The notes beneath the pieces were generated by a model. That model made no database searches. It had not been told where the DNA came from and saw only the letters and a program-made list of their open reading frames with translations. DNA of 64,000 bases from Hydrogenimonas sp. SS33 (GTDB lineage: Bacteria > Campylobacterota > Campylobacteria > Campylobacterales > Hydrogenimonadaceae). The stretch is taken from assembly GCF_040436365.1 (NCBI RefSeq), contig NZ_AP026369.1, forward strand, positions 2,032,501 through 2,096,500, read 5' to 3'. Position numbers and translations under genes: made by a program. Each line of letters begins with the position of its first letter. The first letter of the stretch is position 1. Below are positions 8,682 through 51,225 of this stretch, one piece after another.

Positions 8682-8691
8682 TTCAGTTTTT

Positions 8692-8719
8692 GGTCATTGG
8701 GCATTGGGCATTGGGCATT
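8692..8719. repeat. Heptamer array (GGTCATT + 3 x GGGCATT)
   Basis: Four exact 7-bp units: GGTCATT followed by three GGGCATT. The reverse complement (AATGCCC / AATGACC) is the same motif class as the CCAATGA arrays at 26140, 27231 and 51157. It sits between convergent genes. Confidence 0.85.
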
Positions 8720-8811
8720 GACGCGCGTTGAGAATGATTCTCGGTTTAAAATTTTGTCGAATTGATGCAAACCCTTGACAACCTATTCAGAATCAGCTTC
8801 GCTGATACTAC

Positions 8812-25304: not shown

Positions 25305-25663
25305 CGACCGAAGAGATCAAACGCAAGCGCGCCGACTCCATCCTCAGGGAGCTGATTCCCGAAGCGCTCTCGCAGCTTGGGGACGAACGGCTTCGGGGGC
25401 TGACGGTGACAGAAGTGGTCTGCAGCCGGGGACGCAACGACGCCGACGTCTATCTCGACCCCACGGGGATCGACGAAGCGGAGCAGGCAACGATCCTGAA
25501 GCAGCTCAAGAAAGTTTCCAGAGGCCTGGAAGCCTACTGCCTCAAAGCAGAGGGGTGGTTCAAATCGCCCAAATTCCACTTCAAATTCGACAAAGAGCTG
25601 GACCGGGTCAAACGGATGGACGAACTCTTTGCCAGGATCGAAAAGGAGATCGGCCATGAGTGA
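25301..25663 (+). CDS. rbfA: Ribosome-binding factor A
   Basis: 120 residues, ATG 25301 overlapping the infB stop. Small KH-like protein with N-terminal IKRKRADSILRELIPEAL and LTVTEVVCSRGRNDADVYL, the conserved RbfA strand. Needed for 16S rRNA 5'-end maturation in 30S assembly. The end overlaps rimP by 8 bp. Confidence 0.92.
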   Translation: MTTEEIKRKRADSILRELIPEALSQLGDERLRGLTVTEVVCSRGRNDADVYLDPTGIDEAEQATILKQLKKVSRGLEAYCLKAEGWFKSPKFHFKFDKELDRVKRMDELFARIEKEIGHE

Positions 25664-26090
25664 CGTGGAGCGCGAAGTCGAAAAGGTGGTCAAGAGCCAC
25701 GGTGCCACCCTCTACGACACGGAAGTTGCCAATGAGGACGGCCGGACGGTCTACCGGGTGACCGTGCTGAAAGAGGGGGGCGTCGATCTGGAACTGTGTG
25801 CCGATATCAGCCGGGACCTCTCCCCGCTGCTGGATGTCTACCCGCCCGTCAGCGGCCCCTACTACCTGGAAGTGAGCTCTCCCGGGGTGGAGCGGACCCT
25901 GAAAAAGCCGGAGCATTTCGAAAAATCTGCGGGTGAAAAGGTGCAGCTGAAACTGCGTTCCGGCGACAAAGTGAAAGGAACTCTCAAAGGGCTCGATGAC
26001 AAGGGAGATGTGGTTTTGCAGACCGAGCATGGCGAAGAGAGCTTTCCCCAGAGCGAGATCCGCAAAGCCCGAACCTATTTTGAATGGTGA
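25656..26090 (+). CDS. rimP: Ribosome maturation factor RimP
   Basis: 144 residues, ATG 25656 inside the end of rbfA. Contains the RimP blocks LYDTEVANEDGRTVYRVTVL, GGVDLELCADISRDLSPLLD and YYLEVSSPGVERTLKKPEHF, then a short SH3-like C-domain. Acts in 30S subunit assembly. Its last codon is TGG followed by TGA, and the stop codon opens the GAAGGTGG octamer array that fills the next 30 bp. Confidence 0.95.
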   Translation: MSDVEREVEKVVKSHGATLYDTEVANEDGRTVYRVTVLKEGGVDLELCADISRDLSPLLDVYPPVSGPYYLEVSSPGVERTLKKPEHFEKSAGEKVQLKLRSGDKVKGTLKGLDDKGDVVLQTEHGEESFPQSEIRKARTYFEW

Positions 26091-26118
26091 GAAGGTGAGA
26101 AGGTGGGAAGGTGGGAAG
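26084..26118. repeat. GGTGAGAA / GGTGGGAA octamer array at the rimP stop
   Basis: About four 8-bp units (AATGGTGAG, AAGGTGAG, AAGGTGGG, AAGGTGGG), beginning in the last codons of rimP and containing its stop. Confidence 0.8.
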
Positions 26119-26139: not shown

Positions 26140-26174
26140 CCAATGACCAGTGACCAATGACCAATGACCTCAAC
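26140..26174. repeat. CCAATGA heptamer array overlapping the ribD start
   Basis: CCAATGA, CCAGTGA, CCAATGA, CCAATGA, CCTCAAC in perfect 7-bp phase. Each unit carries an overlapping ATG and TGA. The ribD ATG (26157) is inside it. Confidence 0.88.
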
Positions 26175-27251
26175 CCCCTAACCGATACACCAATAGACCA
26201 ATACACCCATAACCATTCCTTTTTCCTCTCCCTCGCCCTTCAGGAAGCGTGGCGCTATCAACTTTTGACCTTCCCCAACCCTGCCGTAGGGGCCGCCGTG
26301 ACAGACGGGCGCGGTGCTCTGCTCTCCGTCGCCGCCCACCGGGAGGCGGGAAGGGCCCATGCCGAGGTGCTGGCGATAAGAGACGCCTATATCCGCCTCA
26401 GCGGCGATGGGACGCTCGCCGGGTGCGACGACGCTTTTTTGCTTCATGAGGAACTTTTAAAACGTGCCAAAACCCTTTTTCATGACGCCACTATTTACGT
26501 TACGCTGGAGCCCTGTGCCCATGTGGGCAAGACCCCTGCCTGTGCGGATTTGATCGCCGGACTCGGCTTCAAACGGGTGGTGATCGGGGCCGAAGACCCC
26601 AACCCCGAAGCGGCGGGCGGTGCCCGGAGGTTGCGCCAAGCGGGCATCGAGGTGGTCACGGGCGCAGAAAGCGCGGCATGCGAAGCGCTCATCGAACCTT
26701 TCGTCAAATGGCAGCGGACGGGGCGCTTCGTTTTCTTCAAACTGGCACAGACGCTCAACGGCATCCTCGACGGCGGGACCATCAGTTGCGAAACCTCCCG
26801 CCGGTGGGTCCATGCCGTACGCTCCAAAATCGATACCCTTCTCATCGGCGGTGAAACGGTGCGCCAAGACCGCCCCCTGCTGGATGCCCGGCTGACGGGC
26901 GGCAGGGCCCCCGATGTGGCGATCTTCACCCGCCGGCCCGAAAGTATCGACCGGACGATCCCCCTCTTTTCGGTTTCCGGCCGGCATGTGACCTTCACGC
27001 GGCAGCTTCCCGAAAAGGGGCTGGTGATGGTCGAGGGCGGCCCGGGGACCTTCTTTGCACTCAGAGACGAGATCGACTGGATGGTTCTTTTCGTCGCCCC
27101 CTTCGTCAAAGAGGGGATGGGGTATAATGCTCCCAAAAAATTCCGGCTGCTGCATCTGTGTCGAAGCGGAGAGGATGCGATGCTGTGGCTGGGACGGGAA
27201 ACGAGGATGGGAAATGGGGATCGTATACCACCCATTCCCAATGACGAATGA
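26157..27251 (+). CDS. ribD: Bifunctional riboflavin biosynthesis deaminase/reductase
   Basis: 364 residues. Deaminase domain with zinc ligands H68 (HAE, with E70), C120 and C129 (PCAHVGKTPAC); reductase domain from about 175 (FVFFKLAQTLNGILDG, IGGETVRQDRPLL, VEGGPGTFF). Performs the second and third steps from GTP to riboflavin. Odd point: the first 20 or so residues are encoded by repeats (CCAATGA heptamers, then four ACCAATAG-type octamers at 26181-26212), and the last residues IPPIPNDE with the stop are encoded by a second array. No other ATG precedes the conserved core, so repeats appear to provide both the start and the end of the gene. Confidence 0.9.
   Translation: MTNDLNPLTDTPIDQYTHNHSFFLSLALQEAWRYQLLTFPNPAVGAAVTDGRGALLSVAAHREAGRAHAEVLAIRDAYIRLSGDGTLAGCDDAFLLHEELLKRAKTLFHDATIYVTLEPCAHVGKTPACADLIAGLGFKRVVIGAEDPNPEAAGGARRLRQAGIEVVTGAESAACEALIEPFVKWQRTGRFVFFKLAQTLNGILDGGTISCETSRRWVHAVRSKIDTLLIGGETVRQDRPLLDARLTGGRAPDVAIFTRRPESIDRTIPLFSVSGRHVTFTRQLPEKGLVMVEGGPGTFFALRDEIDWMVLFVAPFVKEGMGYNAPKKFRLLHLCRSGEDAMLWLGRETRMGNGDRIPPIPNDE
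26181..26212. repeat. ACCAATAG-type octamer array inside ribD
   Basis: Four 8-bp units: ACCGATAC, ACCAATAG, ACCAATAC, ACCCATAA, coding for part of the variable N-terminus of RibD. Confidence 0.65.
27123..27128 (+). promoter_or_regulatory. Possible internal -10 before ubiE
   Basis: TATAAT in GGGGTATAATGC within the 3' part of ribD, about 150 nt before the ubiE start. Such a hexamer is rare in this GC-rich coding sequence. Confidence 0.3.
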
Positions 27252-27272
27252 CCAATGACCAATGACGAGATA
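27231..27272. repeat. CCAATGA heptamer array at the ribD stop and ubiE start
   Basis: CCCATTC, CCAATGA, CGAATGA, CCAATGA, CCAATGA, CGAGATA in perfect phase. The ribD TGA (27249-27251) and a possible ubiE ATG (27255) both fall in it. Confidence 0.88.
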
Positions 27273-27275
27273 AAG

Positions 27276-28004
27276 ATGAAACAACCGACCGACAAGCGTG
27301 AAAAACAGGAAAAGATCGTCTCGATGTTCGACGAGATCGCCTCGACGTACGATGTGACCAACCGGATTCTCAGCATGGGAATCGACAAATCATGGCGCAA
27401 AAAAGCGTGCGACAAAACGCTGGAACTGCTGGAGCGAAGCGAGGGCCTGACGGTCCTGGATGTCGCCTGCGGAACCGGCGACATGCTCCAGTGGTGGCGG
27501 GATAGGGCCGAAAGAAAAGGGGCGAAGATCGGCCGTTTTATCGGGGTTGACCCATCTGAAGGGATGCTTGAGGTGGCAAAAAAGAAGGTCGATTTCGCCG
27601 ATTTCGTCGTCGCCAAAGCCCAGGAGATGCCGCTGGAGGGGGAGACGGCGGATATCCTCTCCATCAGCTACGGCATCCGCAACGTGGTGGACCGCCAGGA
27701 GGCGATCGACGAATTCTACCGGGTGCTCAAGCCCGGCGGCATGGTGGTGATTTTGGAGTTCACCAAACGCGAGGAGAGGGGCCTCAAAGGGAGGGTGGTC
27801 GACTTCTACATGCACAACATCCTCCCTACGCTGGGCGGGCTGGTGAGCCGCAACTACGCCGCCTACAAGTATCTCCCCGATTCCATCGAAGGGTTTCTGA
27901 CCACCGACATGCTCAGAAACGAGCTGGAGACGGCAGGCTTTACGGTCCGCCACGTGCAGCCTTTTTCCATGGGCATCTCCACCCTTCTCATCGCCCAGAA
28001 ATGA
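27276..28004 (+). CDS. ubiE: Demethylmenaquinone methyltransferase
   Basis: 242 residues from ATG 27276; ATG 27255, inside the heptamer array, would add MTNDEIK. Class I methyltransferase with motif I VLDVACGTGDM (about 66-76), the UbiE/MenG signature FDEIASTYDVTNRILSMGIDKSWRKK near the start, and SISYGIRNVVDRQEAI. Methylates demethylmenaquinone with SAM; with mqnF at 31493 this indicates menaquinone as the quinone. Coupled to xseA by ATGA, an order shared with C. jejuni (from memory). Confidence 0.93.
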   Translation: MKQPTDKREKQEKIVSMFDEIASTYDVTNRILSMGIDKSWRKKACDKTLELLERSEGLTVLDVACGTGDMLQWWRDRAERKGAKIGRFIGVDPSEGMLEVAKKKVDFADFVVAKAQEMPLEGETADILSISYGIRNVVDRQEAIDEFYRVLKPGGMVVILEFTKREERGLKGRVVDFYMHNILPTLGGLVSRNYAAYKYLPDSIEGFLTTDMLRNELETAGFTVRHVQPFSMGISTLLIAQK

Positions 28005-51085: not shown

Positions 51086-51225
51086 AGAGTGGGAAAGTGA
51101 GATCGCCGCTCCGCGGCTGGTGAGAAAGTGGGAAGCGAAAAGTTTGGTTTCCCAATACCCCATGCCCCATGCCCATTGCTTACCCCTCTCCCCAATGACC
51201 AATGACCAATGACGAATGACCAATT
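51086..51225. repeat. Mixed octamer and heptamer arrays inside the efflux operon
   Basis: GGGAAAGTGAGA and GGTGAGAAAGTGGGAAG units (51086-51140), then CCCAATA, CCCCATG, CCCCATG, CCCATTG (51150-51178) and CCAATGA, CCAATGA, CCAATGA, CGAATGA, CCAATTT (to 51225). The OMF stop (minus strand, 51226-51228) directly adjoins it. The only large spacer in this operon. Confidence 0.85.

Follow-up and report, generated by a model that had tools for sequence, protein, structure and literature searches.

Tandem heptamer arrays around ribD in Hydrogenimonas sp. SS33 and the probable origin of its start codon within one of them

The window, that is, the whole stretch of 64,000 nucleotides analysed here, comes from the complete genome (2.25 Mb) of Hydrogenimonas sp. 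SS33 (Campylobacterota). The locus under study carries, by profile matches, the gene series rimP, ribD, ubiE and xseA, the first three of which lie on the plus strand: rimP at 25656-26090 (NCBIfam RimP, E 4e-53), ribD at 26157-27251 (364 aa), and ubiE at 27276-28004, counted from the start that aligns with those of sister species. The rimP-ribD-ubiE order is intact, and three arrays reported on the plus strand by Tandem Repeats Finder separate rimP and ribD. These are a GGTGAGAA octamer array (26086-26118; 4.1 copies), whose first unit(s) contain the rimP stop codon TGA (26088-26090) and which had been overlooked in the initial annotation; a CCAATGA heptamer array (26140-26169; 4.3 copies, 91% matches) holding the ribD start; and a degenerate ACCAATAC octamer array (26181-26215; 4.5 copies, 78% matches, score 42). 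A second CCAATGA array (27238-27266, plus strand; 4.1 copies, 90% matches) contains the ribD stop codon TGA (27249-27251). Elsewhere in the window, a same-family array (51192-51224, plus strand) occupies the typical setting: a minus-strand gene has its stop codon 1 nt away, and the sense strand reads TTGGTCA. A TTGGGCA heptamer array lies at 8690-8809 (minus strand) together with one 88-bp core (8723-8809) of a long composite repeat.

The CCAATGA and octamer arrays described at ribD by the initial annotation are real. For two consecutive CCAATGA units, allowing one mismatch, shuffles predict 0.04 occurrences in the window and 10 are present; genome-wide, CCAATGACCAATGA has 123 exact matches and its reversed control none. 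The octamer part is degenerate (78% matches), as might be expected if the repeats were chance-repetitive ordinary coding or spacer sequence; that reading retains next to no probability in view of these counts, which refute a chance origin of the heptamer arrays, and of the absence of the repeats from most sister junctions.

The last upstream stop in the ribD frame is TGA 26151-26153, and the sole in-frame ATG, GTG or TTG ahead of the conserved RibD body is ATG 26157 (26157-26159), within the first CCAATGA array. We infer from this reading of the sequence that ATG 26157 is used as the ribD start, and RibD could alternatively begin at a non-canonical codon (ATA) past the array. The array had been said to lie across the ribD start, and the start does fall inside it, but one of the array's four ATG positions is a GTG; the octamers attributed to the N-terminus were likewise found, albeit as a weak array. 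The predicted N-terminal peptide from ATG 26157 reads TNDLNPLTDTPIDQY..., and the ACCAATAC octamers encode part of this extension. The array-coded part lies outside conserved RibD, since the TIGR00326 match begins at residue 25; a conserved internal Met of RibD is CTC (Leu) in the window. Upstream, a relic of the ancestral ribD start (26084-26098, plus strand) is still present as ATG 26084 inside the rimP end, now opening only four codons (MVRR) before a stop in the GGTGAGAA array.

In a perfect CCAATGA array, every ATG gives MTNDQ and a stop, the TGA of which overlaps the ATG two units further, and exit into a gene is possible only from an ATG near the array end, such as 26157 or 27255. The 7-bp phase had been taken to present ATG and TGA in all three frames, but this does not amount to a usable start in each, because the ATGs of a perfect array open only five codons. 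At ribD, mini-ORFs from ATG 26143 and GTG 26095 share an end at TGA 26158-26160, which overlaps the ribD ATG, so that an ATGA-type stop/start overlap is present in which the TGA belongs to the mini-ORFs and not to rimP. Downstream, the ribD stop overlaps ATG 27248. The second array had been proposed to hold a possible ubiE start as well as the ribD stop; the stop is indeed inside, and ATG 27255 in the array would lengthen ubiE by 7 codons, but ATG 27276, preceded by GAGATAAAG, is the likelier ubiE start because it aligns with the sister starts.

This geometry makes the stop/restart coupling that had been suggested possible at rimP/ribD, as far as the letters can tell. It also invites a broader explanation, in which the arrays are translation-relay devices selected to couple neighbours, with ATGA in each unit allowing stop and restart in any frame and 14-nt steps leading to the next gene. 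The mini-ORF ends and the ribD stop overlap would suit such a relay, as would the finding that no promoter-like site occurs in the stretch scanned at rimP/ribD, but of its two 14-nt lanes one (26150 to 26164) leads nowhere.

RibD was found in 16 of the 17 other genomes of the genus, a comparison covering one genome per species; the initial annotation had proposed looking for ribD in sister species with and without arrays. In most of them the genes overlap without an array: rimP and ribD do so in 13 of the 16 congeners, either with the ribD ATG inside the last rimP codons (GA-ATG-GTAG; 11 species) or as TAATG (2 species), and in these the ribD frame is open through to the conserved F-F/Y-M-R-L-A-L motif. 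The overlap is lost in G014, G017 and the window, where some 30-100 bp separate the two genes. The tree groups the window with G017 (92/96) and G014 with G013 (98/98); since G013, the sister of G014, retains the overlap, the junction must have opened on at least two occasions. In G014 the RibD N-terminus contains a comparable octamer (CCAATATA/CCAATACA) at the corresponding position, behind a different ATG. The ribD/ubiE junction spans only a few bases in most congeners, contains degenerate heptamers in G017 and G013, and is a run of N in G014. Gap comparisons with G017 gave 157 vs 9, 93 vs -4, 181 vs -11, and 131 vs -4 nt, and sister gaps are often non-empty. Conservation of the arrays base by base as coding sequence, which had been named as grounds for abandoning the repeat interpretation, was looked for and did not occur.

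These observations suggest, with good though not full confidence, that these arrays belong to a heptamer/octamer family that is lineage-specific and genome-wide and that, at rimP/ribD, ended the overlap and supplied a start codon. A repeat-bearing stretch would have been inserted at, or grown at, the overlapping rimP/ribD junction and the ribD/ubiE junction during lineage divergence; with sister gaps often occupied, either insertion or replacement and growth from existing sequence could account for it. The repeat stretch would have separated the body of ribD from the earlier start within rimP. The frame would have stayed open because one heptamer unit gave the in-frame ATG 26157 at the array end and the octamers that follow are open, while the ribD stop would have come to sit in the second array. 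Ribosomes may reach ATG 26157 unaided by a Shine-Dalgarno sequence, by termination-reinitiation at the ATGA (TGA 26158-26160), in an RNA stretch that appears to be of ordinary structure (z-scores +1.4, +0.9 and 0.0, no folding beyond chance). The arrays themselves probably lengthen and shorten by slippage. The suggestion that ribD was "cut loose and re-capped by repeats" thus describes the outcome well, given the sister overlap, the relic start and the sole array ATG, but does not hold as a rearrangement.

The wider family was characterized in 820 kb of the genome, with genes called by a simple script; array densities are biased because the sampled loci were partly chosen for arrays, although positions relative to genes should be unaffected. 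This sample holds 132 distinct arrays with units of 7, 8, 14 or 16 nt, 102 of them of period 7; in the unselected sample, too, no other single period is as common. Units include CCAATGA, CCAATGC, GTAGTGG, CAGTGAA, CGGTGAA, AGTGAGA and GGTGAGAA, the last belonging to the AAGGTGAG unit family with 10 Tandem Repeats Finder rows in the genome sample. In the lag autocorrelation of intergenic DNA, period 7 is visible for the set selected for arrays (0.289) and absent for the unselected set (0.265), and the arrays therefore constitute a minority of intergenic DNA. Across the phylum, three exact CCAATGA units were present in only 4 of 397 genomes drawn, from two genera. Thirty stretches with exact (CCAATGA)3 were also observed in viral contigs (L158-L187).

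Arrays are concentrated at gene ends: 53 lie no more than 10 nt from a stop, and 5 of the 132 lie inside genes. Among short CCAATGA arrays (fewer than 6 units), 21 of 32-34 have TTGGTCA on the sense strand and a stop codon no more than 6 nt away, a proximity expected for 4% of random intergenic 30-mers; overall, in 28 of 39 CCAATGA arrays the closest gene boundary is a stop and the sense strand carries TTGGTCA. The polarity is pronounced. The G-richer strand runs outward from the gene in 35 of the 39 CCAATGA arrays of this genome, and this is kept in 29 of 30 arrays from six other genomes, three of them from another family. For all unit families together it points outward in 106 cases and inward in 21 (n = 127), compared with about 1:1 at array-free gene ends. 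Several arrays recur at the corresponding gene end of two or three species (G000 12744, 721748, 87508 and 2217561), and others are private. As a partner of intrinsic terminators, the array found no favour (3/19 vs 52/361, no enrichment).

The distribution over junctions bears on the translation-relay explanation. Arrays occur at 19 of 108 convergent junctions (18%), 57 of 553 co-directional junctions (10%) and 7 of 80 divergent junctions, so they are no rarer where genes converge than where neighbours could be coupled. Seventeen stop codons fall within arrays, as against three start codons, namely those of ribD, of ubiE (for which the later start is likelier) and of one short, dubious ORF. Moreover, the usual sense-strand orientation at stops, TTGGTCA, is without a stop in any frame. 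Selection of the arrays as relays is accordingly improbable, and the stop and start counts together with the junction types make stop/restart coupling unlikely as the general role of the arrays, if they have one. Rearrangement breakpoints at arrays were likewise rejected: neighbour order is kept in 85% of the tests at array junctions (75 of 88), compared with 67% at array-free gaps of at least 50 nt (129 of 193; P 0.0014), so neighbours are better conserved at arrays than at other junctions.

The long composite repeat follows the order (AGTGRGN)n, the 88-bp core (AGTATCAGCGAAGCTGAT...CTCAACGCGCC) and (CCAATGM)n, often followed by a GGGGCGAAGCCCC hairpin. Its core between two heptamer arrays, with 23 copies in this genome (L062-L084) and 0 in 17 congeners, would be expected if the arrays were ends or remnants of a transposase-moved mobile element of the REP or MITE type. 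The short arrays, on the other hand, have no common core beyond the heptamers, and several occupy the same gene end across species, unlike a recent mover. Genes for Y1 (REP-type) transposase and reverse transcriptase are uncorrelated with the array content of congeners; the Y1 transposase (PF01797) also occurs in array-poor congeners and was not found in G014 and G017. Nor do the array-free gap halves carry a matching skew (17 G to 23 C), on which ground a paired palindromic element as the rule was rejected. We therefore assign a low likelihood to the mobile-element origin.

Inverted arrays and hairpins were observed at several sites. Inverted arrays are visible by eye in some gaps, and at G000:84731-84871 (L023) (GGTGRGAA)n followed by (TTCYCACC)n forms a large imperfect inverted repeat separating co-directional genes, the G013 orthologues of which overlap by about 20 nt in the script gene calls. 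The intergenic region G000:1239191-1239656 (L034) resembles, by eye, a remnant of the 23S rRNA intervening-sequence (four-helix-bundle) protein; it is flanked by inverted heptamer arrays, and the corresponding site in G017 holds a shorter one. Mini-hairpins with a GCGAAGC or CTTCG core (GATTTGCGAAGCAAATC, GGGGCTTCGCCC) recur beside heptamer arrays in several species, for example at G000:375692, G000:82881 and L104.

Intergenic heptameric repeats are widespread and unexplained, and the ribD case, compared over 16 congeners, suggests that in a biosynthetic operon a repeat broke an overlap and provided the new start codon, which would be one way for start sites and N-termini to originate. What builds such polar arrays beside stop codons could be tested through cross-species comparison. 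A bolder proposal, which we rate as quite improbable, is that some undescribed process, acting in unrelated phyla and without need of G-quadruplexes, extends 7/8-mer arrays outward from CDS ends in a strand-specific manner, and that at rimP/ribD such an array made both the start codon and a five-codon mini-ORF relay restoring coupling after the overlap was lost.

The open-access literature searched yielded no report of CCAATGA arrays from Campylobacterota; comparisons are drawn with heptamers of other phyla. The STRR repeats of Calothrix PCC 7601 presumably comprise three heptamer families, one of which may be TTGGTCA, that is, CCAATGA on the other strand. These heptanucleotide repeats are cited by Rehm et al. 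2015 (PMC4692102), who describe GGGAATC / GGGGA(T/C)T heptameric repeats of Xanthomonas and Nostoc, mostly of about 4 units and between genes. Those repeats lie near ORF ends, some overlapping stops, within conserved gene neighbourhoods, and differ in length among relatives; their G-rich strand is the coding strand after stops and the non-coding strand before starts (PMC4692102). The CCAATGA arrays share with this type the 7-nt tandem units at many loci, the mostly intergenic position near ORF ends and the strand polarity, but differ in unit and phylum, and CCAATGA/TTGGTCA (unit GGTCATT), with only GG runs, appears to be no evident G-quadruplex former. Since the strand rule of the G-quadruplex heptamers is also obeyed by a unit without GGG, quadruplexes would not be needed for the polarity, which argues against them as its necessary cause. 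An array-born start codon replacing a gene overlap does not appear in the passages of PMC4692102 considered. The TAACTGA direct repeats of Beggiatoaceae, Cyanobacteria and Bacteroidetes lie mostly just upstream of starts in forward orientation (MacGregor 2015, PMC4679880). The present arrays resemble them as heptamers at many intergenic sites, patchy among lineages and often with no Shine-Dalgarno sequence nearby, whereas here the unit is CCAATGA, the position is mostly just after stops, with the sense strand reading TTGGTCA, and the genome holds several unit families side by side. Taken against these systems, the arrays most likely represent a lineage-specific expansion of heptamer repeats of a known type, with an array-born start codon at ribD.
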